DNA from: an uncultured Bacilli bacterium
GTDB taxonomy: Bacteria; Bacillota_I; Bacilli_A; RF39; UBA660
DNA length: 32,852 nt
NCBI GenBank assembly: GCA_944359085.1
Contig: CALVSQ010000012.1
Span: 1 to 32,852, forward strand
Direction of reading: 5' to 3'
The translations under genes were made by a program, and so were the position numbers. The number at the start of each line of letters is the position of its first letter. The first letter of the stretch is position 1. The notes under the pieces are model-generated. The model was given only the letters and a program-made list of their open reading frames with translations. It was not told where the DNA came from and ran no database searches. Shown in pieces: positions 1,738 through 32,753 of this stretch.

Positions 1738-1761
1738 TTATTTATAATAGGAGAGATGATT

Positions 1762-3474
1762 ATGGGAAATTTAAAAAATTACAAAACCTTTGGTTTTACA
1801 CTTATTGAGTTATTAGCAGTAATTATAATTTTAGCTATAGTAGCATTAATCGCAACACCAATCGTATTAGATATAATAGATGATGCAAGAATATCAGCAG
1901 GCAAGTCAGAAGCAAATATGATATTGAGTGGAATAAATAATTATTGTGCTAGTGAAGATATGAAATATCAATTAGATAATAATTATGAAAGAATATGTAT
2001 ATCAAGTATGGATAAAGATGATGTACCAACAATGGTAAATTTAGGAAATGCGACAATAGATAAAATTACATATAATGGATCTAAATTAACTGAATTAGTA
2101 ATAACAAGTAATAATCATAAATTTACATTATGTCCAAGTGGCACATTTGCAATGGATGATGAAAAATGCGATGATGAAGTAGCACAATCAGGAAATTTAA
2201 TATCAACATTATTAGAACAATATCAAGAAGGAGAAACAACAGGATTAGTAAAAGATACAACAAATCCAAATTTGTATTATTACACAGGAACAAATGAAGA
2301 AGTAGCAAATAATTTCTTATGGTATGGAGGCCATCAATGGCGAGTATTAGAATTTGATACTGCAGAAAAAACATTAACTTTGATTACTCAACAGCCATTA
2401 ACAGCAATCCGACCAGCTAGTGCAGCATGGACAACAAAAGATGCATATGAATCAAGTTATATCAATACATGGTTAAAAGATTATTTTTTGAACAGATTAG
2501 ATAATAGTATTCAAAGCAATATTTTGTATAGTACATTTAATGTAGGAATATATACAGATGTTGATGAAATTACAACAAATCAAAAAGTAGGATTATTGGA
2601 TAATGGTCAATATATAAGAGCAGGAGAGGCTGGTTCATATTTAGATATAAAAGATAATTTTTGGTTAGGAAATAGGTATAGTTCATCTGACATTAGTTAT
2701 GTTAGTGAAAATGGTGTTAGTTACATTGGTCCTTGGAGGGCTCATGGAGTTCGTCCAGTTATAAAAATTTCTGATATAACCATCATAGGTGATGGTACTC
2801 TTACTAATAGTTATCATACTGAAAACAAAGCAAGCAATACAAATGAAGTCCAAGTAGGAGAATATATTAATGTGCCATATAGTGGAAGTGATAGTGCTTG
2901 TGGAAGTGATAATATGTGTACGTTTAGAGTGATAAATAAAGACGGTGATAGTATCAAAGTAGTACTAAATGGCTTGCTTTCAACAACAAGTCAATGGGCA
3001 GATAATGTAAGTGATAACATAACAACAGGTGATTTGATATATACGAATGTATTAGATAACTTTATTGAAAATATTGATAGTAAATATATAACAACAGGAA
3101 CATATGGAGTGGGAATTTATGATGGCACAAATAGTTATACAGTACCACAAAGTACAACGATAACTGCTAATATAGGATTACCAACAGTTGGTGAGATGTT
3201 CAGTGGAAATGATATAGATTTAAGTACATCAAATTCAAAAACATTTGTAGATGTAAACACAATAGAAAATCCAATTGACACAGGTGGCTATTGGACAATG
3301 AATAGATTAGGTTCATCTTATGTTCGCTATGTATACGGCTTTGGCATTCTTGGTGACATTAGGCATTCAGATATGATTGGCGTTCGCACAGTAATATATT
3401 TGAAGTCAGGGGTTTCAGCCATAAATTTCTCATCTGGAGAAGGAACTGCGCAATCACCATATGTGTTAGAATAA
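1762..3474 (+). CDS. Prepilin-like surface protein with two repeated GVRPVI-ending domains
   Basis: The N-terminus is a type IV prepilin signal: short basic leader, then G11 before F12 of FTLIELLAVIIILAIV, with Glu at +5. A prepilin peptidase should cut there and leave an N-methylated Phe on a membrane helix. The start at 1762 is preferred because AGGAG (1749-1753) is 8 bases away; the ATG at 1756 is too close. At 570 residues it is far longer than a major pilin. After the stalk come two related domains, each ending in G-V-R-P/T-V-I-K/Y-I/L (about residues 332-338 and 540-546). Both contain a short segment (residues 305-328 and 516-539) where similarity to the paralogue at 21918 collapses. 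The rest of the two proteins aligns closely (NNFLWYGGHQWRV, TLTLITQQPL, CGSDN, TFVD.NTIENP). The likely role is a minor pilin or adhesin exposed on the wall; the ligand is unknown. No pilus assembly genes are in the window. Confidence 0.8.
   Translation: MGNLKNYKTFGFTLIELLAVIIILAIVALIATPIVLDIIDDARISAGKSEANMILSGINNYCASEDMKYQLDNNYERICISSMDKDDVPTMVNLGNATIDKITYNGSKLTELVITSNNHKFTLCPSGTFAMDDEKCDDEVAQSGNLISTLLEQYQEGETTGLVKDTTNPNLYYYTGTNEEVANNFLWYGGHQWRVLEFDTAEKTLTLITQQPLTAIRPASAAWTTKDAYESSYINTWLKDYFLNRLDNSIQSNILYSTFNVGIYTDVDEITTNQKVGLLDNGQYIRAGEAGSYLDIKDNFWLGNRYSSSDISYVSENGVSYIGPWRAHGVRPVIKISDITIIGDGTLTNSYHTENKASNTNEVQVGEYINVPYSGSDSACGSDNMCTFRVINKDGDSIKVVLNGLLSTTSQWADNVSDNITTGDLIYTNVLDNFIENIDSKYITTGTYGVGIYDGTNSYTVPQSTTITANIGLPTVGEMFSGNDIDLSTSNSKTFVDVNTIENPIDTGGYWTMNRLGSSYVRYVYGFGILGDIRHSDMIGVRTVIYLKSGVSAINFSSGEGTAQSPYVLE
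2674..2745 (+). other. Divergent segment 1 of the first prepilin-like gene
   Basis: This segment lies between the conserved FWLGN and GVRPVI codons. Most codons here end in T or C, and it reads richer in G and C than the flanking A-ending codons. The matching segment in the paralogue (22836-22910) differs at most positions and is one codon longer. Confidence 0.6.
3307..3378 (+). other. Divergent segment 2 of the first prepilin-like gene
   Basis: This segment lies between W-T-M-N-R and G-V-R-T-V-I. Codons such as CGC, GGC, TAC, GAC and CAT are common here though rare around it. The matching paralogue segment is 23487-23576 and is six codons longer. Confidence 0.6.
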
Positions 3475-3810: not shown

Positions 3811-3849
3811 ATATTTAATATTTGTTTGAAAGAGTATATATATTTGTTA

Positions 3850-4014
3850 TTTAGAGAGCTGATGTTGGGTGAAAATCAGTTAAGAAATATATAGAAAGAC
3901 ATCAAACGATAAAATAATCGGTTAATCCCGTTAAAGATTTAAGAGCATAGAATTCTATGAAATAAGGTGGCACCGCGAAATAATTCGTCCTTATATTTAT
4001 AGGATTTTTTTAAT
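3850..4014 (+). promoter_or_regulatory. T-box riboswitch (tRNA-Asp) leader of aspS
   Basis: The leader has the stem I start AGAGAGCTGATG (3853-3864), a purine-rich stretch with the candidate specifier codon GAC (3898-3900, Asp), the T-box sequence GGTGGCACCGCG (3966-3977), and a terminator-like hairpin (TCCTTAT with ATAGGA, then seven T, ending about 4012). Uncharged tRNA-Asp should pair with GAC and with the T-box bulge and allow read-through into aspS. This is established for the T-box family; the specifier choice is my reading and agrees with the downstream gene. Confidence 0.9.
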
Positions 4015-4027
4015 TATAGGAGGATTT

Positions 4028-5761
4028 ATGAAAGTAAATAATAATACAAATTTTAATATTAAAAATGTAGGTGAAGTAGTAACATTATATGGTTGGGTAG
4101 CTAAAAAAAGAAATTTAGGTGGTTTAATTTTTATTGATTTAAGAGATAGAAGTGGAATTATTCAATTAGCTGTTAAACCTGATAATAAATATTACGATTT
4201 AGCTGAATCTTTAAAAAATGAGTATGTTATTAAAGTAGAAGGTATTATAACTGAAAGGGAAAGTAAAAATAAAAATTTATTAACTGGCGATATTGAAGTT
4301 ATCATTAATGAATTAGAAGTATTAAATACTAGTATTGATTTACCTTTTAATTTAAATGATACTACTGCTTTAGAAGATACAAGATTAAAATATCGTTATT
4401 TAGATTTAAGAAGAAGTGAAATAAAAGAAAAGTTAGAAGCTAGACATAAAATTACTTTTGCTATAAGAGAATATTTAAATAAATTAAATTTCTTAGAAAT
4501 TGAAACACCAATTTTATGTAAAAGTACACCTGAAGGAGCAAGAGATTATTTAGTTCCATCTCGTATATTTAATGGTAGATTTTATGCTTTACCTCAATCA
4601 CCACAAATATTTAAACAATTATTAATGGTTGGTGGTATGGAAAGATATTTTCAAATTGCTAAATGTTTTAGAGATGAAGATTTAAGAGCTGATAGGCAAC
4701 CAGAATTTACGCAAGTTGATATGGAAATGAGTTTTGTAACTGAAGATGATGTTATGAATTTAACAGAAGGATTAATAGCTTATATATTTAAACAAGTTAA
4801 AAATATTGATATTAAATTACCTTTAAGAAGAATGAAATATGATGATGCTATAAATTATTATGGCTCTGATAAACCTGATTTAAGATTTGATATGAAAATT
4901 AATGATATAACTGATATTTTTAAAGATACTGAATTTACTATTTTTAAAGATGTATTAAATAATAATGGTATAATCAATTGTTTAGTTGTTAAAAATAGTG
5001 CGGATAAATTTTCAAGAAAAGATATTGATAAATTAACTGAATTTGTTAAAACATATAAAGCAAAAGGTTTAGCTTATATTAAAATAGATAATGAAGTAAC
5101 AGGAAGTATTGCTAAAGTTATAACTAATGTAGAATTAAGTAATTTAAAATCTAAATTAAATTTAGAAAATAATGATTTAGTTTTAATTATATCTGATAAA
5201 AAACAAATAGTTAAACAAGCATTAGGGGCTTTAAGATTACATTTAGGTAAACAATTAAATTTAATAAGTAATAATTATGAATTATTATGGGTTGTTGATT
5301 TTCCTTCATTTGAATATAGTGAAGAAGAAAATAGATATGTAGCTTGTCACCATCCTTTTACTGCTCCAAAAGATAGTGATATCGATAAATTATTAACTGA
5401 TAAAGCTAACTGTTATTCTAAAGCTTACGACATTGTAATTAATGGTTATGAAGCAGGTGGAGGAAGTATTAGAATTCATGACCAAGAAGTTCAAAAGAAA
5501 ATGTTTGAAGCATTAGAATTAACTGATGAACAAATTAAAGAAAAATTTGGTTTCTTTGTTGATGCATTAAAATATGGAACACCTCCACATGGTGGCTTAG
5601 CGTTAGGTTTAGATAGATTAACGATGTTACTTACTAATACTGAAAATATAAGAGATGTTATAGCATTTCCTAAAACAGCTAGTGCATCTGATTTAATGAG
5701 TGAATGTCCGAATATTGTCGACGAAAAACAACTAAAAGAGTTAGGTATAAAAACAAATTAG
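4028..5761 (+). CDS. aspS: Aspartyl-tRNA synthetase
   Basis: This class II enzyme charges tRNA-Asp with aspartate in the cytoplasm. At 577 residues it is the usual bacterial length. An N-terminal OB fold (about 1-105, GWVAKKRNLGGLIFIDLRDR) binds the anticodon. The catalytic core has motif 1 (IETPIL), motif 2 (FRDEDLRADRQPEFTQVDME) and motif 3 (GLALGLDRLTMLL). A bacterial GAD insert lies between motifs 2 and 3 (about 290-420). TAGGAGGAT precedes the ATG closely. The upstream T-box matches an aspartate-responsive gene. No Asp-tRNA amidotransferase (gatCAB) genes are nearby, so I cannot tell whether the enzyme is discriminating. Confidence 0.97.
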   Translation: MKVNNNTNFNIKNVGEVVTLYGWVAKKRNLGGLIFIDLRDRSGIIQLAVKPDNKYYDLAESLKNEYVIKVEGIITERESKNKNLLTGDIEVIINELEVLNTSIDLPFNLNDTTALEDTRLKYRYLDLRRSEIKEKLEARHKITFAIREYLNKLNFLEIETPILCKSTPEGARDYLVPSRIFNGRFYALPQSPQIFKQLLMVGGMERYFQIAKCFRDEDLRADRQPEFTQVDMEMSFVTEDDVMNLTEGLIAYIFKQVKNIDIKLPLRRMKYDDAINYYGSDKPDLRFDMKINDITDIFKDTEFTIFKDVLNNNGIINCLVVKNSADKFSRKDIDKLTEFVKTYKAKGLAYIKIDNEVTGSIAKVITNVELSNLKSKLNLENNDLVLIISDKKQIVKQALGALRLHLGKQLNLISNNYELLWVVDFPSFEYSEEENRYVACHHPFTAPKDSDIDKLLTDKANCYSKAYDIVINGYEAGGGSIRIHDQEVQKKMFEALELTDEQIKEKFGFFVDALKYGTPPHGGLALGLDRLTMLLTNTENIRDVIAFPKTASASDLMSECPNIVDEKQLKELGIKTN

Positions 5762-5813: not shown

Positions 5814-6527
5814 GTGAATAAAACAGCGAAAATAATTCTTAACGTATTAATATTAATTTTAATTAGTATAATAATATTTTTAGTTCTTAGAAATTTTTTA
5901 TTAGATAAAAAATTAAAAGATGAAATAAATAAAACATATAATTTAATTATTATGGATGATTATAATTATAAAGATGTTTATGAAAAAATTGATAATATAG
6001 TAACAAAAGAAGGTTACGCAATAGTAGAAGATTCAGCTAAAGATTATTTATTAGATTATTTTTTAGAAGTATTAAATTTAGATGAAACTTATGAAAAAGC
6101 TAATATTGAAAATATAATATCAATCGAAAATATTAAAAAAGATGGTAAAAAATTTAAAAATTCTAAAGAAACTTTATCTAGTTTAAAAGAAAGTATAGAA
6201 AATATTGAAGAAGAAATTTTAAATAATTTAAACAAAGAAAAAATGATAAGTTATATAAATGATAAAAATTTAGCTGATAGTTATATTAAATTATATGAAT
6301 CATTAGATTTTATGAAAGATAAAAATATTGAAAAAAGAAAAAGTCAAATTGAAGATAAAGTTAATTCATATTTATCTAAAATAAATAAAATAGAAGAAGT
6401 AATTGATTTTTTAATTAAAAATAATAATTGGAAAGTAGAAAATGAACAAGTAAAATATGAAGATGAACAATTATCTATTGAATATAATGAGATGATTAAT
6501 TCAATATATGAAGAAACCAATAATTAA
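5814..6527 (+). CDS. Membrane-anchored helical protein of unknown function
   Basis: The start is taken at GTG 5814 because GGAGAGTGAT (5801-5810) is then a correctly placed ribosome site; the ATG at 5799 overlaps that site. The 237-residue product has one N-terminal membrane helix (about residues 5-28, IILNVLILILISIIIFLVL), then a charged, strongly helical outer or cytoplasmic part rich in Lys, Glu, Asn and Ile with coiled-coil tendency. I see no catalytic motif. Its end overlaps the pentapeptide gene by 20 bases, so the two are probably cotranscribed and translationally coupled. Topology is probably N-in with most of the chain outside, given few positive charges before the helix; this is weak. 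I do not recognise the family. Confidence 0.65.
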   Translation: MNKTAKIILNVLILILISIIIFLVLRNFLLDKKLKDEINKTYNLIIMDDYNYKDVYEKIDNIVTKEGYAIVEDSAKDYLLDYFLEVLNLDETYEKANIENIISIENIKKDGKKFKNSKETLSSLKESIENIEEEILNNLNKEKMISYINDKNLADSYIKLYESLDFMKDKNIEKRKSQIEDKVNSYLSKINKIEEVIDFLIKNNNWKVENEQVKYEDEQLSIEYNEMINSIYEETNN

Positions 6528-21917: not shown

Positions 21918-23663
21918 ATGAATAAAATAGCAAATAGCAAAAATGGGGGGGGGTATTTACAAAATAATGCTTTTACCTTAACGGAATTAATTGGTGTAGT
22001 AATTATATTAGGTATAATATCTTTACTAGCATTCCCACCAATATTAAATGCGATAAGAAGTACCAAAGGTAAAATAAGTGATGCTAGTAAAGAAATACTT
22101 TATAATGCAGTAGGACTTTATGTTAGTGACAACATCAATAATTATCCCAAATATAATGGAAATAAATATTGTGTAACTGTAAATGAATTAATTAAAGGAG
22201 AATACTTACCAACAACAGTATATGATTCAGTAACAGGAAATGAAATACCACAAGATAGTAAAATTGAAATAAATATAGAGAATGATATTTATAGTTACAA
22301 TTTAAATAATGAATGTAAAGAATATTATAAATATGGCCCATTAATAAAGGTTTTATTAGGGCAATATAATGAATCAAATACAAATGGATTAGTAAAAGAC
22401 ACAACAAGTGAAAATATATATTATTATAAAGGAACTAATGGAGAAGTAAGTAATAACTTTTTATGGTATGGAGGACATCAATGGCGAGTAATAGAATTTG
22501 ATATAGAGAAAAATACATTGACATTGATAACACAGCAACCTTTAGTTTTGATTCAACCAGCAAGTAGTGTATGGACTACAGAAAAAGAATATAATGAAAG
22601 TTATTTAAATCAATGGTTAAATGAATATTTTTGGAATAGTTTAGATAATAGTATACAAAATAACATAGTGGATAATACATTTAATGTTGGTATATATGGT
22701 GAAACAATATCAGAACAAAATGTTGAAAAAATAAAAACAGTAAAAAAAGTAGGATTATTGGATACAAAACAATATTTAAGAGCAGGAGAACTAGATTCAT
22801 TTTTAGATATTAAAGATGAGTTTTGGTTAGGAAATTTGTATAATTCTTCTCAAATTCGTCGTGTTGGCAGTGGAGGAACTATATATATGGGTGATTTAAC
22901 TTTTTTTGCTGGAATTCGCCCAGTTATAAAAATATCAGATATAATTGTTAATAATGGAGATGGAAATCTAACTTCAAGCTATAATAATAGTGATAAAGCA
23001 AATGATACTAGTGAAATACAAGTTGGTGAATATATAAGTGTTCCATATAATGGTAATGATAATGCCTGTGGTAGTGATAATAAGTGTTTATTTAGGGTAG
23101 TAAGTAAAGACAATGACAGTATAAAAGTAATATTAAATGGTTTATTACCAAATCCAAGTTTTTATGGTGAGACACCAAAAATAACAACAAATCATACTAT
23201 ATATACTCCTCTTAATAATTTTGCTAACAATATAAGTAATAATTATAGATATACGGGTAATAAAAATTTTTATATCTGGTATTATCCTTATTCAACAAGT
23301 GAAAGTGGAAATTACAAAGATGTTCAAAAAGAAATTTTATCTGCCAATGTCGGATTACCAACTATGGGAGAAATGTTTACGTGTAACGATATTGATATAA
23401 CTAATGATGGGGTAAATAAAACCTTTGTTGATATTAACACTATAGAAAATCCTGAAGCCTATAATGGATTATGGGTTATGAATAGATATGTATCTACTAG
23501 TGTTAGTGTTGGAGTAATTCATTCAGCAGGAGCTTTAGGAAGTTATCCAGTTTCACCTTCGCATAATTACAAAGCCGGTGTTCGCCCAGTAATATTTCTA
23601 AAAAATAATTTAAAAATTATAGCGGGAGATGGAACAGCTCAAAATCCTTATACATTAAAATAA
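21918..23663 (+). CDS. Prepilin-like surface protein with a G9 tract near the start codon
   Basis: A 581-residue paralogue of the product of 1762-3474. The prepilin signal is leader SKNGGGYLQNNA (cut after A18), then FTLTELIGVVIILGIISLL with Glu at +5. The leader contains nine G in a row (GGG GGG GGG, residues 10-12). One extra G gives a stop after 16 codons, one fewer gives a stop after 20 codons, both before the membrane helix, so expression should depend on tract length. Two repeated domains follow, each ending G-I/V-R-P-V-I; the divergent segments are about residues 307-331 and 524-553. The gene has its own promoter and terminator and sits between mraY and murG. The role is probably a pilus-like adhesin; no ligand can be assigned. 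Confidence 0.8.
   Translation: MNKIANSKNGGGYLQNNAFTLTELIGVVIILGIISLLAFPPILNAIRSTKGKISDASKEILYNAVGLYVSDNINNYPKYNGNKYCVTVNELIKGEYLPTTVYDSVTGNEIPQDSKIEINIENDIYSYNLNNECKEYYKYGPLIKVLLGQYNESNTNGLVKDTTSENIYYYKGTNGEVSNNFLWYGGHQWRVIEFDIEKNTLTLITQQPLVLIQPASSVWTTEKEYNESYLNQWLNEYFWNSLDNSIQNNIVDNTFNVGIYGETISEQNVEKIKTVKKVGLLDTKQYLRAGELDSFLDIKDEFWLGNLYNSSQIRRVGSGGTIYMGDLTFFAGIRPVIKISDIIVNNGDGNLTSSYNNSDKANDTSEIQVGEYISVPYNGNDNACGSDNKCLFRVVSKDNDSIKVILNGLLPNPSFYGETPKITTNHTIYTPLNNFANNISNNYRYTGNKNFYIWYYPYSTSESGNYKDVQKEILSANVGLPTMGEMFTCNDIDITNDGVNKTFVDINTIENPEAYNGLWVMNRYVSTSVSVGVIHSAGALGSYPVSPSHNYKAGVRPVIFLKNNLKIIAGDGTAQNPYTLK
21945..21953 (+). repeat. Poly-G tract (G9), candidate phase-variation switch
   Basis: Nine consecutive G in codons 10-12 of the prepilin-like gene; no other run of this kind is seen in this AT-rich window. 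Replication slippage in such tracts causes reversible on/off switching in many surface-antigen genes. Confidence 0.85.
22836..22910 (+). other. Divergent segment 1 of the second prepilin-like gene
   Basis: It lies between FWLGN and G-I-R-P-V-I. Arg codons CGT CGT, plus GGC and repeated TTT, appear here, and most codons end in T or C. It differs from 2674-2745 at most positions. Confidence 0.6.
23487..23576 (+). other. Divergent segment 2 of the second prepilin-like gene
   Basis: It lies between W-V-M-N-R and G-V-R-P-V-I. It is six codons longer than the matching segment in the first gene, with no clear alignment between them. Confidence 0.6.
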
Positions 23664-27713: not shown

Positions 27714-28766
27714 ATGTTTGGATTAGAAATGGATCAATTAGCTAATATAAAAGTAATCGGTGTTGGTGGTGGTGGTAATAACGCTGTAAACCGTATGATA
27801 GAATCAGGAGTACAAGGTGTTGACTTTATTGTCGCTAATACAGACTTACAAGTTTTAAATAAATCAAAAGCACCTGTTAAAATACAAATTGGTACAGATT
27901 TGACTAATGGATTAGGTGCAGGTGCAAATCCACAAATAGGAAAAGAAGCTGCTTTAGAAAGCAAAAATGATATAGAAGAAGCTTTAAAAGGAGCAGATAT
28001 GGTATTTGTTACTTGCGGTATGGGTGGAGGAACTGGTACTGGTGCCGCACCTGTTATTGCTGATATTGCTCAAAGTTTAGGAGCATTGACTGTAGGTATA
28101 GTTACTAAACCATTTAGTTTTGAAGGTAGAAAAAGAATGCAACAAGCTATTTCAGGCTTAGAAGAATTAAAGAAACATGTTGATACTTTGATTGTTATAC
28201 CTAACGATAGATTAAGAGAAATAATAGATAAAACTACACCTTTGTTAGATTCATTTAAAGAAGTTGATAATGTATTAAGAAGAGGTGTTCAATCAATAAG
28301 TGACTTAATCGCTGTAGCAGGGTTAATCAACTTGGATTTTGCCGATGTTAAAGCAGTTATGGAAAAAAGAGGAAATGCCTTAATTGGTATTGGTATGGGT
28401 GTAGGTGAAGATAGAGCTAAAGAAGCTGCTTTACAAGCTGTATCTAGTCCATTATTGGAAACAGGTATAAGTGGAGCTACTGATGCAATTATAAATGTAA
28501 CAGGTGGTGCTAATTTAACTTTATTTGAAGTAGAAGAAGCAGCTGAAGTTATAAGACAAAATGCTAATACTGATATTAATACAATATTTGGGGCAGTTAT
28601 CAATGAAAATTTAAATGATGAATTAATTGTAACTGTTATTGCAACTGGTTTTGAAGAAGATAAACCTGCTCTTCATTCTTATCAAACAACAGCTTATAAT
28701 AATAACGATGATGATGATTCAGATGATGCTGACGTTCCATCATTCTTAAGAAATAGAGGATTTTAA
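27714..28766 (+). CDS. ftsZ: Cell division protein FtsZ
   Basis: FtsZ is the tubulin-like GTPase of the division ring. The 350 residues have the nucleotide motifs [14 protein letters not shown], the tubulin signature [17 protein letters not shown] and the T7 loop ([13 protein letters not shown]). A short Asp/Asn-rich linker leads to the C-terminal peptide [11 protein letters not shown], which binds FtsA and other partners. GGGAGGA precedes the ATG. The codons are less AT-biased than in neighbours, as expected for a highly expressed gene. It ends the division cluster at a strong terminator. Confidence 0.98.
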
Positions 28767-28794
28767 AAATTGCTGAAAAAGGCAATTTTTTTTA
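28766..28794 (+). terminator. Terminator after ftsZ
   Basis: AAAATTGC (28766-28773) pairs with GCAATTTT (28782-28789), then T. Confidence 0.85.
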
Positions 28795-28801
28795 AAATCA
28801 T

Positions 28802-28829
28802 GCAGGAAATCACCACACTTTTGGCTAAT
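28802..28829 (+). promoter_or_regulatory. Sigma-H-like promoter, copy A (Rpn gene)
   Basis: GCAGGAAAT (28802-28810), 12 bases, GGCTAAT (28823-28829). This fits the Spo0H consensus RnAGGAwWW and RnnGAAT with one mismatch (T for G). Copy B at 29749 shares both boxes, the spacing and the following ACTARTAGG, while the spacer is unlike. Confidence 0.55.
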
Positions 28830-28852
28830 AAAACTAATAGGAGGTGATTTAA

Positions 28853-29692
28853 ATAAAAAAATTTTATACTGCAAGACATGAACCTGTTTTCATGTATGCA
28901 GCTGTTAAAAAAGAATTCTTAATAGCTATTTTAGAACCAATTATAGATAAAAAAATTGAAGATTTACAAATACTAAATCCTAATTTAATTCAAGAGTATT
29001 ATAAAATACGTGGTCAAAGATTAGATTTGTTAGTAAAAACTAAAAATGAGATAATCAATGTTGAATTAAATAATAATTATAGTGAAGAAATAAAAATAAG
29101 AAATCTTCATTACATTTTTAAGTTAGCAAGTGAAAATACGGAAAGAGGAAATAAATACAAAGTAGGTCATTCGATAATTCAAGTAAATTTAAATTTTTAT
29201 AATAGTAAATATGAAAAAAGTATATATACATTATATGATAAAATAAATAAAATAGAGTTAACTGATTATATAAAAATATATAATGTAGGTATAGACAAAT
29301 ACATAAAAAACTATTATAATAATGATAAGAAGTTTATCAAAGGTGAAGAAGCATTAATTATGTTAGATTTGGGTAAACAAGGATTAGAAGAATTATCAGA
29401 AAAGAGTGAGATAGTGAGTAATTTTAAAGAAGAAGTAATAAAAGCTAATAATGACGAGTTTGTAGTAGATTGGATAAGTCGTGAAGAAGAACAAAAACAA
29501 TATGAAGAAGTAATGTATGAAAAAGGACTAATTCAAGGAAAAGAACAGGGATTATCTCAAGGCAAACAAGAAGGAATCAGACAAAATAAAATAGATGTAG
29601 CAAAAGAAATGTTAGAATTAAATATGGATTTAGAAACAATAAGTAAAGTAACTAAATTGGCTAAAGAACAAATTGAAAGTTTAAAAAATTAA
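28853..29692 (+). CDS. PD-(D/E)XK nuclease of the Rpn/transposase-like family, apparent AUA start
   Basis: The core motif is RLDLLVKTKNEIINVELN (Asp, then Glu-x-Asn), and the C-terminal tail GLIQGKEQGLSQGKQEGI with AKEMLELNMDLETISKV is the hallmark of recombination-promoting nuclease (Rpn) and related PF12784-type proteins. Family members begin with K-x-F-Y-T-x-R-H-x-x-V-F; here that segment, KKFYTARHEPVF, is present upstream of the first ATG (28892). The frame opens right after TAA at 28850 with ATA AAA AAA TTT, and AGGAGGTGAT (28840-28849) is correctly placed for a start at ATA 28853. So the gene probably starts at AUA, or had an ATG changed to ATA. It has about 279 residues. It lies between sigma-H-like copies A and B. 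Confidence 0.75.
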   Translation: MKKFYTARHEPVFMYAAVKKEFLIAILEPIIDKKIEDLQILNPNLIQEYYKIRGQRLDLLVKTKNEIINVELNNNYSEEIKIRNLHYIFKLASENTERGNKYKVGHSIIQVNLNFYNSKYEKSIYTLYDKINKIELTDYIKIYNVGIDKYIKNYYNNDKKFIKGEEALIMLDLGKQGLEELSEKSEIVSNFKEEVIKANNDEFVVDWISREEEQKQYEEVMYEKGLIQGKEQGLSQGKQEGIRQNKIDVAKEMLELNMDLETISKVTKLAKEQIESLKN

Positions 29693-29710: not shown

Positions 29711-29740
29711 AAAAAATTGCATTTTATTGCAATTTTTTTT
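29711..29740 (+). terminator. Terminator after the Rpn gene
   Basis: AAAAAATTGCA (29711-29721) pairs with TGCAATTTTTT (29728-29738), then T. Confidence 0.85.
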
Positions 29741-29748
29741 AATTTCTT

Positions 29749-29776
29749 GCAGGAATTCGATATAGTTTTGGCTAAT
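29749..29776 (+). promoter_or_regulatory. Sigma-H-like promoter, copy B (bacteriocin operon)
   Basis: GCAGGAATT (29749-29757), 12 bases, GGCTAAT (29770-29776). The sequence then runs ATAACTAGTAGGGAGGT into the ribosome site of the transporter gene. Compare copy A at 28802. Confidence 0.55.
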
Positions 29777-29799
29777 ATAACTAGTAGGGAGGTAAAAAA

Positions 29800-31836
29800 G
29801 TGTTTAAAAGAATTAAGCAAGAAGGTTTTAAGGATTGTGGTCCAAGCTGTTTACTTAATATAATTAAATATTATAAAGGTTATGTTGATATAAATGATTT
29901 AAAAGAAATGTGTAAAACTGATAAATCTGGAACGACTGCTTATCATTTAATTGAAGCAAGTAAAAAACTAGGATTTGAAAGTTATGGTATTAGATGTAAT
30001 TTAAATGATTTGAAAAAAGAAGATGTAATACTTCCATGTATTGCTCATGTAATTATAAATAACTCCTACAATCATTATGTTGTAATTGAAAAAATAGATT
30101 TTAAAAAGAAAAAATTATTAATTAACGATCCAATTGGAAAACATAAATATTGTTCATATGAAGAATTTAATAAAATATTCAATAATATTCTCATTTATTT
30201 ATACCCTATAAAAAAAATAATAAATACCCCTAATAACTCATGTATAAAATTTTTTCAAGAAATGATAAAATCCTCAACAAATCAATTGGTTCAAGTTGTT
30301 ATTATATCTATTTTCATTACAATATTTTCTATTATCTCATCGTTTTATATGCAATATATGATTGATAATATTATGTTTTCTAAACAAAAAATTATACTTA
30401 TTTTTATAATATTTATGATTATTTACATTTTTAAAATAATATCAGATTTTTTTAGAAATAAAATATTAATTTTAATTAATCAAAAAGTTGGTTTCAATCT
30501 TACTTTTAATACTTTTAAACAAATTATAAGCCTTCCTTATCGTTACTATAAAAATAATACAACTGGTGAAATAATATCAAAAATAAATGATTTAGAAGCA
30601 GTAAGAGAAGTTATTTCTAAAGTTGCTTTAAGTTTATTTATTGATTTGCCTTTAACTATTTTATCTTTAATAATTATGTATATGTTAAGTGATACTTTAT
30701 TTTTTGTAAGTTTAATTATTATGTTTTTATATTTATTTATAATTGTTATATTTAGAAATAAATTTAATGATTTAATTGATGATGCAACATTGAATAAAGC
30801 ATCTGTTACTTCATATATGGTTGAATCTATTAATGGTTATGAGACAATTAAAGGATGTAATATAGAAAATAAAATTATTCATAATTTTGAAGATAAATAT
30901 GCTACTTATTCTAATAAAATAAAAGAATTAGATAATTGTTATAATTATCAATACTTACTAAAAGAATTAATAAATAATATAGGTTTTATTGTAATTATAT
31001 TAATTGGAATATTTTTAGTTATAGATAAGACTATAACTTTAGGTTCATTACTATCATTTAATTCTTTGCTTATTTATTTTTTAAGCCCAATTAGAAACAT
31101 TATTGATTTAGATAATAATTTAAGACAAGCTAAAATATCTATTAAAAAAATATTATATTTATATTATAAAAAAAATAATTATCAAATTAACTCTATTGTG
31201 GGAGACATTGAATTTAAAAATTTAAGTTATAGTTTTGATGATGTAAACAATGTTTTATCTAATATTAACTTAAAAATTAAAAATAAAAGTAAGGTTATGA
31301 TATTAGGAAGTAGTGGTAGTGGTAAAAGTACTTTATTTAAAATATTAAAACAAAATTATGAAGTTAAAAGAGATAAAGTATATATTAATGGTATTGATAT
31401 TAACGATTATAAACTAAATAATATTGTTTATGTATCACAAAATGAAATTTTATTTTCTGATACTATAGAAAATAATATTGGTAACGATATTTATAAAGTA
31501 TCTAAAATATGTTTGGTTGATGAAATCGTAAAAAAAACAAAATTAGGTTATAAAACTTTAATTGAAGAAAATGGTTTTAATTTATCGGGTGGTGAGAAAC
31601 AAAGAATTATTTTAAGTCGTGCTTTAGCTAATCCTTTTGATATTTTAATAATTGATGAGGGATTAAGTCAAGTTGATACAAATATGGAAAGAATAATTAT
31701 AAAAAATATATTAAAAGAATATCAAGATAAAACAATAGTTTTTATATCACATAGGTTAGATAATATTGATTTGTTTAATCAAGTTATAAAAATAGAGAAA
31801 GGAAAAATAATTGATGATTTATCCAAAAATATATAA
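29800..31836 (+). CDS. Peptidase-containing ABC transporter (C39) for double-glycine peptides
   Basis: A 678-residue PCAT-type exporter that cuts the leader of bacteriocins after Gly-Gly and exports the mature peptide. The N-terminal C39 peptidase has Cys in QEGFKDCGPSCL (about 13), His in NHYVVIEK and Asp in INDPIG. Six membrane helices follow (about 155-420). The ATPase domain has Walker A LGSSGSGKSTL, Q-loop VSQNEILFSD, signature LSGGEKQR, Walker B ILIIDEG and switch His in ISHR. The start is GTG 29800 after GGGAGGT. The two peptide genes downstream (32257, 32402) are its likely cargo. Transcription is probably from the sigma-H-like promoter at 29749. Confidence 0.95.
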   Translation: MFKRIKQEGFKDCGPSCLLNIIKYYKGYVDINDLKEMCKTDKSGTTAYHLIEASKKLGFESYGIRCNLNDLKKEDVILPCIAHVIINNSYNHYVVIEKIDFKKKKLLINDPIGKHKYCSYEEFNKIFNNILIYLYPIKKIINTPNNSCIKFFQEMIKSSTNQLVQVVIISIFITIFSIISSFYMQYMIDNIMFSKQKIILIFIIFMIIYIFKIISDFFRNKILILINQKVGFNLTFNTFKQIISLPYRYYKNNTTGEIISKINDLEAVREVISKVALSLFIDLPLTILSLIIMYMLSDTLFFVSLIIMFLYLFIIVIFRNKFNDLIDDATLNKASVTSYMVESINGYETIKGCNIENKIIHNFEDKYATYSNKIKELDNCYNYQYLLKELINNIGFIVIILIGIFLVIDKTITLGSLLSFNSLLIYFLSPIRNIIDLDNNLRQAKISIKKILYLYYKKNNYQINSIVGDIEFKNLSYSFDDVNNVLSNINLKIKNKSKVMILGSSGSGKSTLFKILKQNYEVKRDKVYINGIDINDYKLNNIVYVSQNEILFSDTIENNIGNDIYKVSKICLVDEIVKKTKLGYKTLIEENGFNLSGGEKQRIILSRALANPFDILIIDEGLSQVDTNMERIIIKNILKEYQDKTIVFISHRLDNIDLFNQVIKIEKGKIIDDLSKNI

Positions 31837-32269
31837 TAACTTCTCTTATATTATAAATAAAAAAACATCACTATCAATCTTTTTATGGATAATATTATTA
31901 ATTATAAGTTTTGTTATATTTATAATTATTTCTTTAAAATATGAGTATTATTTATATCAATCATATTTTGGATATGTAAAAAAAATAGATGATTCATTTT
32001 ATACAATTATTTATGTTCCGGAAGATAAAGTAAATGAATTATCTAAAAGTAATTTATTAGTTGATAATAATGATTATAGTTTTGAAATTGTTTCAATAAG
32101 TGAAGAGTATTTTATTATAGATAATAAAACATGTTATCAAGTAATATTAGATTTTGATTTGAAAGATGAATATAAGATTGAAAATAATATTATTAACATA
32201 GTTTTAAAAAATAATAAAACAACGCTTTATCAAGAATTAAAGAAAGGAATAAAAAAATGGAAAAGTTAG
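31814..32269 (+). CDS. Short membrane-anchored accessory protein of the exporter (HlyD-like remnant)
   Basis: A 151-residue protein starting at ATG 31814 (TTG 31811 is also possible), inside the last codons of the transporter gene, so translation is coupled. It has a basic start, one membrane helix (about 20-42), then a beta-rich outer part (FGYVKKIDDSFYTIIYVPED, KTCYQVILDFDL). Position and shape match the accessory (membrane-fusion-like) partners of bacteriocin exporters, but those usually have about 450 residues with a long coiled coil, which is missing here. The end overlaps the first peptide gene by 13 bases. Confidence 0.65.
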   Translation: MIYPKIYNNFSYIINKKTSLSIFLWIILLIISFVIFIIISLKYEYYLYQSYFGYVKKIDDSFYTIIYVPEDKVNELSKSNLLVDNNDYSFEIVSISEEYFIIDNKTCYQVILDFDLKDEYKIENNIINIVLKNNKTTLYQELKKGIKKWKS

Positions 32270-32391
32270 AAACTAAAGAATTACAAAAAATATCCGGTGG
32301 TGGATTAGGATTAGGTTTATTAATAGGAGCTGGTGTTATATTTTTAATCGGTGTTATTGATGGTTATATAAGACCACTTAAATGTAACTAG
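32257..32391 (+). CDS. Bacteriocin precursor peptide 1 (double-glycine leader)
   Basis: A 44-residue peptide. The leader MEKLETKELQKISGG has the conserved L/I spacing and Gly-Gly cut site of C39 substrates. The mature part (29 residues) starts GLGLGLLIGAGVIFLIG and ends DGYIRPLKCN: a Gly-rich membrane helix with a GxxxG pattern and one Cys two from the end. Its start overlaps the accessory gene and its stop overlaps the next ribosome site (TAGGAGGTG). It is probably one half of a two-peptide class II bacteriocin with peptide 2; it could also act as a signal peptide. Confidence 0.8.
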   Translation: MEKLETKELQKISGGGLGLGLLIGAGVIFLIGVIDGYIRPLKCN

Positions 32392-32401
32392 GAGGTGAAA
32401 T

Positions 32402-32563
32402 ATGTTAGAAAAAGAAGAATTATTACAAATAGTAGGTGGAATTAGTATTACAGGTAGTTTATTAAGTTCAATTTATAGAGGCATTAATTCCATAATGGAC
32501 GTTGGAAGAAGTTTAGGAAGTGCTATTAGAAGAGCAATATCAGGTTCAATGTGTCCAGTATAA
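32402..32563 (+). CDS. Bacteriocin precursor peptide 2 (double-glycine leader)
   Basis: A 53-residue peptide: leader MLEKEELLQIVGG, then a mature 40-mer beginning ISITGSLLSSIYRGINSI and ending GRSLGSAIRRAISGSMCPV. It is amphipathic and basic, with a GxxxG pattern (GRSLG) and a single Cys near the end. GGAGGTGAAAT precedes the ATG. The last motif, G-x-x-x-G-S-x-I-R-x-x-x-S-x-x-C-P-V, is partly shared with the next small ORF. Together with peptide 1 it forms a plausible two-peptide bacteriocin; the lone Cys in each could allow a disulfide link. Confidence 0.8.
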   Translation: MLEKEELLQIVGGISITGSLLSSIYRGINSIMDVGRSLGSAIRRAISGSMCPV

Positions 32564-32706
32564 TAAGAAGTCATTATAAACAAATTCTATTAGCTGTTAT
32601 TGTAATTTGTTTGTTACCTTTATTTCCTATATGTGTAGAAATAATATTTAAGTTTGGTAATTTAATAGGTTCTTCTATTAGATGTTTGACTTCTTGTCCG
32701 GTATAA
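32551..32706 (+). CDS. Small membrane peptide sharing the bacteriocin C-terminal motif; possible immunity protein
   Basis: The frame opens at GTG 32551 inside the end of peptide 2 (13-base overlap) and encodes 51 residues: MSSIIRSHYKQILLAVIVIC, a hydrophobic helix, then CVEIIFKFGNLIGSSIRCL and the end TSCPV. It has no Gly-Gly leader. The tail G-N-L-I-G-S-S-I-R-x-x-x-S-C-P-V mirrors the end of peptide 2. A strong terminator follows its stop, which supports its being the last gene of the operon. Immunity is the usual job of a small membrane protein in this place, but it could be a third bacteriocin component. The start codon is uncertain because no good ribosome site is seen. Confidence 0.55.
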   Translation: MSSIIRSHYKQILLAVIVICLLPLFPICVEIIFKFGNLIGSSIRCLTSCPV

Positions 32707-32738
32707 AAGAATGGTGAAAATCATTCTTTTTCTTTATT
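32705..32738 (+). terminator. Terminator of the bacteriocin operon
   Basis: AAAAGAATG (32705-32713) pairs with CATTCTTTT (32722-32730), followed by a T-rich tail. Confidence 0.8.
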
Positions 32739-32753
32739 TTTAATAAAAAACTA

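Follow-up and report, generated by a model that had tools for sequence, protein, structure and literature searches.

Two-peptide (class IIb) bacteriocins of the lactobin A/cerein 7B and lactococcin G types are encoded by adjacent genes for double-glycine peptides that carry GxxxG motifs, accompanied by a C39 ATP-binding cassette (ABC) exporter, an accessory protein and a small membrane gene behind them, and immunity to such bacteriocins is called a mystery in a passage of one published account (PMC6957408). The present analysis concerns a cassette with all of these features, found in a 32,852 bp stretch of DNA (the window) that is one entire contig (C12; CALVSQ010000012.1) of the 1.13 Mb draft genome of an uncultured Bacilli bacterium of the RF39 lineage, family UBA660 (GCA_944359085.1). 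It encodes an exporter, an accessory protein, two peptides (A and B) and a third small protein, open reading frame 3 (ORF3). Some relatives of peptide A also pass the class IIb model TIGR03949. Unlike class IIb loci, the cassette is a core set across the order, its mature peptides are more conserved than its exporter, each peptide has one C-terminal Cys, the accessory protein appears reduced to a transmembrane (TM) helix and a beta-barrel, and the third gene seems to mimic peptide B.

Other described systems share part of this organization. The peptides and the export machinery of the cannibalism toxins Sdp and Skf in Bacillus subtilis differ from those of the cassette. Possible transition-state control and self-protection, as described for them in PMC6963621, form a point of likeness. 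The same paper presents Streptococcus pneumoniae CibAB/CibC as a pair of bacteriocin peptides whose membrane immunity protein is transcribed together with them, with an alternative sigma factor in control. The cassette promoter resembles a SigH type, in contrast to ComX for CibAB/CibC. In Caulobacter, CdzC/CdzD/CdzI combine two glycine-zipper peptides, a type I exporter and a small membrane immunity protein, but this system is Gram-negative, with proteins of 84-86 aa and divergently transcribed operons, and the relevant part of its description makes no mention of mimicry (PMC5380434). The cassette itself was not found in literature on RF39 bacteriocins, mimic or dominant-negative immunity, Tenericutes double-glycine peptides or core-genome two-peptide systems, and a word search of two RF39-related papers gave no mention of bacteriocin (PMC7301438, PMC10868615). 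The peptide class is already known, but in the literature searched we found neither an order-wide core spread of it nor a membrane partner that mimics B nor a promoter of SigH type.

Cassette layout, peptides and export genes

The cassette and its signals are arranged on the forward strand as follows.

29749..29778, + strand: SigH-like promoter, with -35 element GCAGGAATT at 29749-29757, a 12-nt spacer and -10 element GGCTAATAT at 29770-29778
29800-31836, + strand: C39 peptidase-ABC exporter, 678 aa, GTG start
31811-32269, + strand: accessory protein, 152 aa, modelled as a TM helix and a beta-barrel domain
32257-32391, + strand: peptide A precursor, 44 aa, with leader 32257-32301 (15 aa) and mature part 32302-32388 (29 aa)
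32402-32563, + strand: peptide B precursor, 53 aa, with leader 32402-32440 (13 aa) and mature part 32441-32560 (40 aa)
32551-32706, + strand: ORF3, 51-aa membrane protein, GTG start, without double-glycine leader
32705..32742, + strand: probable intrinsic terminator, an 11-bp hairpin followed by a T-rich run (-10.1 kcal/mol, z -3.98)

A preliminary description of this DNA had reported a C39 exporter, an accessory protein and two double-glycine peptides in overlapping or nearly touching order, which agrees with the coordinates: exporter and accessory genes overlap by 26 nt, the accessory gene and A by 13 nt, and B and ORF3 by 13 nt, with a gap of 10 nt between A and B. The mature lengths of 29 and 40 residues that it gave can be read from both peptides, as can the GxxxG motif (GVIDG in A; GRSLG, within GRSLGSAIRR, in B) and the single Cys near each C-terminus. 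Two adjoining double-glycine peptide genes with GxxxG in both mature parts, in the same operon as a C39 ABC exporter, are traits by which class IIb loci are recognized. The term "three-peptide" locus was abandoned, and ORF3 was rejected as a third secreted peptide, because its product is a membrane protein without a double-glycine leader. The terminator behind ORF3 is not listed by a simple scan demanding at least three G-C pairs. A larger operon extending beyond the window, where the contig stops at 32852, was considered but rejected, given that the hairpin already follows ORF3. Since cassette order and motifs recur across dozens of genera, the arrangement is not a product of chance.

Peptide A exceeds the cut-off of the bacteriocin leader model TIGR01847 (17.7 vs 15.7 bits), and two of four A sequences scanned singly, that of the window being one of the four, pass TIGR03949 (32.8 and 22.3 bits; cut-off 21.5 bits). 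Conservation was followed in 79 named loci chosen by the exact motif GRSLG[ST]AIRR, a choice that inflates the identity of B and leaves A unselected. Exactly one Cys is present in mature B at 78/79 loci and in mature A at 73/77, and a GxxxG..P pattern occurs in 75/77 A; the A of locus L138 was not cut by the script and is hence left out of the A counts. Because the single C-terminal Cys is conserved in both peptides, a disulfide between them is possible. When A and B are compared by hhalign only the shared leader aligns, and a search of the PDB with the B profile returned chance matches only. Some loci depart from the usual form: the A frames of L138 (~5850-5975) and L135 (~5830-5999) have no ATG, GTG or TTG before the leader, perhaps owing to a rare start codon, and L032 (6011-6694, cassette strand, containing a 227-aa ORF) and L065 (4782-6001) carry an extra ~0.7-1.2 kb between A and B.

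The exporter contains the Pfam domains Peptidase_C39 (PF03412, 2.8e-30), ABC_membrane (PF00664) and ABC_tran (PF00005), scores 411.5 bits against TIGR01193, under its cut-off of 523.85, and is the sole full-length match within the assembly. The accessory protein matches no NCBIfam family at E<=1. Its AlphaFold2 model, built from 50 sequences (predicted local distance difference test score 86.4), places a beta-barrel behind a single N-terminal TM helix, with strands filling residues 45-138 except for a 9-residue helix at 71-79; it contains neither a coiled coil nor a lipoyl domain, and no helix pair that could form a long coiled-coil hairpin in its 152 residues. Superposition by VIA-align gives BesA at Z 9.2 (root-mean-square deviation 3.2 over 86 residues), MacA at 8.7 and Spr0693 at 8.5. 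Foldseek returned no PDB match at E <= 0.001 (best E 0.048), so the fold assignment rests on these VIA-align Z scores of 8-9, and the model is read as a minimal membrane-fusion protein on a moderate structural match. The length of 151 residues reported earlier is corrected to 152 aa, and the small size of the protein is normal for its family, with 132-172 aa in 55/55 relatives listed.

ORF3 and its likeness to peptide B

ORF3 has the place and size of an immunity gene and a transmembrane stretch, and contains no known domain at gathering score. Its C-terminus (GNLIGSSIR...SCPV) resembles peptide B, and hhalign matches B with ORF3 at 93 percent (E 3.2e-7, 33 columns), lining up the GxxxG and the Arg of the two, while A and ORF3 give no match. 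Among 6,838 ORFs of the 79 loci, the top 29 non-B matches of the mature-B profile are all ORF3, 29/53 ORF3 outscore the best other ORF with that profile, and in the reverse search the top 50 non-ORF3 matches of the ORF3 profile are all B (50/79 B). Compared with the mature B of its own locus, ORF3 reaches a mean z of 4.46, with 87 percent above 2 (n=52), against a mean z of 0.26 with its own A. This likeness is not a product of the gene overlap, because the overlap covers the ORF3 start alone. In the class IIb control locus ABP-118, one locus only, the ORF at the immunity position resembles neither peptide.

The first 15 residues of the 53 ORF3 have a mean net charge of +2.6, and a Cys lies within the last 8 residues in 39/53. 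By the positive-inside rule this N-terminal charge would direct the B-like part outward, where the peptides arrive. The simplest reading of the likeness is decoy immunity, and ORF3 is proposed, judging from its sequence, to be an immunity protein that imitates B.

ORF3 was found in 53/79 named loci (not in 26) and in 64/145 genomes of the family, the weakest few hits of the latter search lying inside long frames away from B and looking like chance; it was not found in any of the 10 family genomes without B. Among 74 loci with exporter or accessory gene in view, 47 have both accessory protein and ORF3, 17 neither, 2 ORF3 only and 8 the accessory protein only, an association for which kinship alone may account. 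At L091 (3402-3524) an additional double-glycine peptide with a different mature part is encoded between B and ORF3.

Distribution, inheritance and promoter

The named relatives are uncultured Bacilli, 'Mollicutes' and 'Tenericutes' metagenome-assembled genomes, including Candidatus Faecisoma merdavium, Pelethosoma merdigallinarum and Onthousia faecavium. Profile searches located B in 135/145 family genomes (107/112 of high quality) and A in 133/145 (105/112 of high quality). The preliminary description had set conserved pairing in relatives as a test beforehand, and 133 of the 145 genomes hold both peptides, none A only, 2 B only and 10 neither; pairing is thus near-perfect, and one peptide conserved without the other is not what the genomes contain. 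In the two B-only genomes, B is a fragment at a contig edge (G002) or a weak match (G007). Among the 10 genomes without either peptide, 7 gave no C39 peptidase match at E<=1e-5; in the other 3 the exporter frame spans just 380-458 aa, probably because the contig stops within it. B was also found in 227/241 genomes of a larger order set (205/216 of high quality), in which all rows listed carry the same family label. A class-wide set of 395 gave matches in 51 members of the family, and outside the family (~341 genomes, an inferred number) the only B matches were two to the leader half, in G296 and G560. No relatives of B were found in plasmids, phages or viral contigs, and a phage or plasmid origin was rejected for that reason.

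A adjoins B in 78/79 named loci. In the exception, L066 (~1500-1955), A is truncated and a sequence resembling, by eye, the C-terminus of a large serine recombinase enters its last codons from upstream, which looks like the integration of an element into A. Frequent neighbours of the cassette in the 79 loci, many of which are too short to show them, are rpsU-like (51), YqeY (44) and RsmD (29) genes, named by eye, and the cassette is often placed between rsmD and rpsU-yqeY.

Median pairwise identity is 0.60 for YqeY and 0.57 for RsmD, 0.53 and 0.50 for mature A and mature B respectively, 0.39 for the exporter, 0.32 for ORF3 and 0.27 for the accessory protein, as estimated from 700 random locus pairs, using for each gene only pairs that show it in both loci, and with B favoured by the choice of loci. 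The mature peptides are therefore about as conserved as the housekeeping neighbours and more so than their own exporter. Within the genus of the window (10 sequences) the ratio of non-synonymous to synonymous polymorphism (pN/pS) is lowest for mature A (0.10) and mature B (0.16), which points to purifying selection, followed by the exporter (0.21), ORF3 (0.26) and the accessory protein (0.42). Loci that are more alike in RsmD and YqeY also tend to be more alike in exporter, A and B (pairwise identities, Spearman 0.34-0.58; 0/300 permutations as high), and since these identities track the two genes and chromosomal neighbours recur, the cassette is inherited with the chromosome. It is a near-universal, mostly single-copy, vertically inherited core trait and no mobile weapon.

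Upstream of many exporters AGGA(A/T)(A/T) is followed, after 11-12 nt, by an (A/G)NNGAAT-like box, and the promoter in the window has one mismatch to the SigH consensus (RNAGGAWWW-N11-14-RNNGAATWW). At most one mismatch to this consensus was seen at 22/72 exporters vs 9/392 other genes with free upstream regions (Fisher p 5e-13); with two mismatches allowed the figures are 45/72 vs 99/392. A full-length SigH-like sigma factor is present in 13/14 genomes, including this one, and the exporter promoter resembles an alternative-sigma (SigH-like) type. In this genome the genus-type element occurs three times (<=3 mismatches), before the cassette and before two PDDEXK_2 genes.

A matrix made from twelve exporter elements was used to scan all 10 contigs (1,042,656 bp) of a relative, G048. 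Five sites scored 35.9-44.3, the next 14.1, and the control gave none above 14; one of the twelve training sequences is the G048 cassette site, and the remaining four sites lie outside the training set. The five sites precede the cassette, the genes for a UvrD-like helicase, an ORF6N protein and an MvaI/BcnI-type nuclease, and an operon in which a SpoIIAA-like STAS gene is joined by one for a SigF-like sigma factor. G048 encodes Spo0A above its cut-off (268.6 vs 200) and a SigG-like sigma just under (362.8 vs 372). The sigma loci compared were that of G048 (L236) plus 22 more (L237-L258). An exporter-type element precedes the STAS-SigF operon in 1/21 genomes, that of G048, so that autoregulation by the sigma factor of this operon is not general and is not claimed, while a TGTCGAA box, the core of the Spo0A site, lies upstream of the operon in 16/21. 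As to possible Spo0A control of the cassette, the TGNCGAA core is found in only 3/72 exporter upstreams. At L236 the SpoIIAA-like STAS gene stands directly before the SigF-like gene with no anti-sigma gene between; this fits the prediction, in the part of PMC10868615 that treats it, that RF39 are spore-forming with spoIIAB reduced or absent.

Upstream of the cassette the window contains ftsZ (named by eye) and a transposase-like PDDEXK_2 gene (28892-29692) under a cassette-type promoter element, as is the second copy in the genome (G000:C41:531-564). A direct repeat of 77 nt, 77 percent identical (28765-28841 and 29712-29788), comprises a T-run hairpin and the SigH-like element, with one copy between ftsZ and PDDEXK_2 and the other before the exporter. 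Elsewhere in the window, 1756-3474 and 21918-23663 encode paralogous secreted-looking proteins with, by eye, a type IV pilin-like N-terminus, whose DNA is 76-78 percent identical over 300 and 146 nt, and a T-box leader (Rfam RF00230, 121.5 bits) at 3818-3995 lies ahead of an aspartyl-tRNA synthetase-like gene (by eye) at 4028.

Proposed mechanism and alternatives

We regard it as somewhat probable that the cassette encodes a class IIb-like membrane-active pair with dedicated export, decoy immunity through a mimic of B and use at the transition state. A and B would leave the cell through the one dedicated C39 exporter, assisted by the minimal membrane-fusion protein, their leaders presumably being cleaved after GG, as leader and C39 domain suggest. 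Outside the cell they would come together and pair in the target membrane, with their GxxxG faces as the contact. A disulfide joining the single C-terminal cysteines may lock the pair, which may permeabilize that membrane as class IIb bacteriocins do. ORF3, translated from a start within the end of gene B, copies in its outer part the GxxxG[ST]xIR segment of B, and most likely protects the producer as a decoy in its own membrane that engages A or the incoming A-B pair. The promoter suggests transition-state use, as in cannibalism or fratricide toxins. Pairing, GxxxG motifs and export route are evident from the sequences, while killing is predicted and the disulfide possible. A more specific version, which we put forward tentatively, is a cannibalism-like core toxin of the whole order, SigH-type and sporulation-linked in these genome-reduced uncultivated Bacilli, whose immunity protein would derive from B and act as a tethered, perhaps disulfide-forming, decoy for A.

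Several observations weigh against the toxin reading. The A peptide of the window falls under the TIGR03949 cut-off (15.7 vs 21.5 bits), its B has no family match in Pfam and NCBIfam scans, the A-B disulfide is a possibility suggested by sequence, and the SigH-like sigma scores under the curated SigH cut-off. ORF3 is missing from part of the clade, so it cannot be the sole immunity solution, and loci without it require other protection, or none. Bacteriocin peptides are usually more variable than transport genes; here the peptides are less variable than the exporter, the reverse of this norm, which would also fit a signal or other physiology. The earlier proposal of a two-peptide class II pair gains from the near-perfect pairing and the conserved motifs, but core status and such strong conservation are unusual for a bacteriocin.

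The conservation of the peptides also makes signalling a serious rival, unlikely as we consider it. The peptides would form a two-component pheromone or another conserved signal outside the cell, ORF3 would sense it in the membrane or serve as a docking protein, and conservation would stem from the matching of a receptor. Mature peptides that are core, mostly single-copy and strongly conserved would be expected of such a signal, as would the SigH-like promoter, SigH also driving phr pheromone genes in Bacillus. However, the frequent neighbours (rpsU-like, yqeY and rsmD, named by eye) include no conspicuous histidine kinase or response regulator, ORF3 has no known domain at gathering score, and the peptides are long, of membrane type and furnished with GxxxG, A resembling class IIb models.

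It is improbable, in our estimate, that ORF3 has no immunity role and is instead a third pore subunit, or an anchor that keeps A-B at the surface of the producer so that killing depends on contact. The helix motif that ORF3 shares with B and its frequent C-terminal Cys could bring it into the complex, and CdzC/CdzD of Caulobacter offer a precedent in the part of PMC5380434 concerned with them; but ORF3 has no leader for C39 export, and its position and size match the small immunity genes of two-peptide systems, given as 42-55 aa in a passage of PMC6957408. We hold as quite improbable that the peptides serve the envelope or spore-related physiology of the producer, neither killing nor signalling. 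Conservation across the order agrees with this, as do the sporulation regulators of G048 and its cassette-type element before the SpoIIAA-like/SigF-like operon, whereas double-glycine leaders and a C39 exporter of their own typically go with secreted bacteriocins and pheromones, and the mimic of B is more easily explained as protection. An ordinary, sporadic bacteriocin island acquired horizontally, which general gene content and the transposase-like PDDEXK_2 gene upstream might suggest, is very improbable and was rejected on the distribution of the cassette (135/145 genomes) and on the correlation of exporter, A and B identities with rsmD and yqeY, besides the lack of B relatives in plasmids, phages and viral contigs.

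If the decoy reading is correct, a small protein imitating the motif by which one peptide pairs would provide a direct and testable mechanism for immunity to two-peptide systems. A bacteriocin-type pair in nearly every member of an order is unusual and suggests a role in the life cycle of these uncultured, gut-type bacteria, and the promoter, through its link to a sporulation-type programme, could point to a first function for the predicted sporulation regulators of the group.

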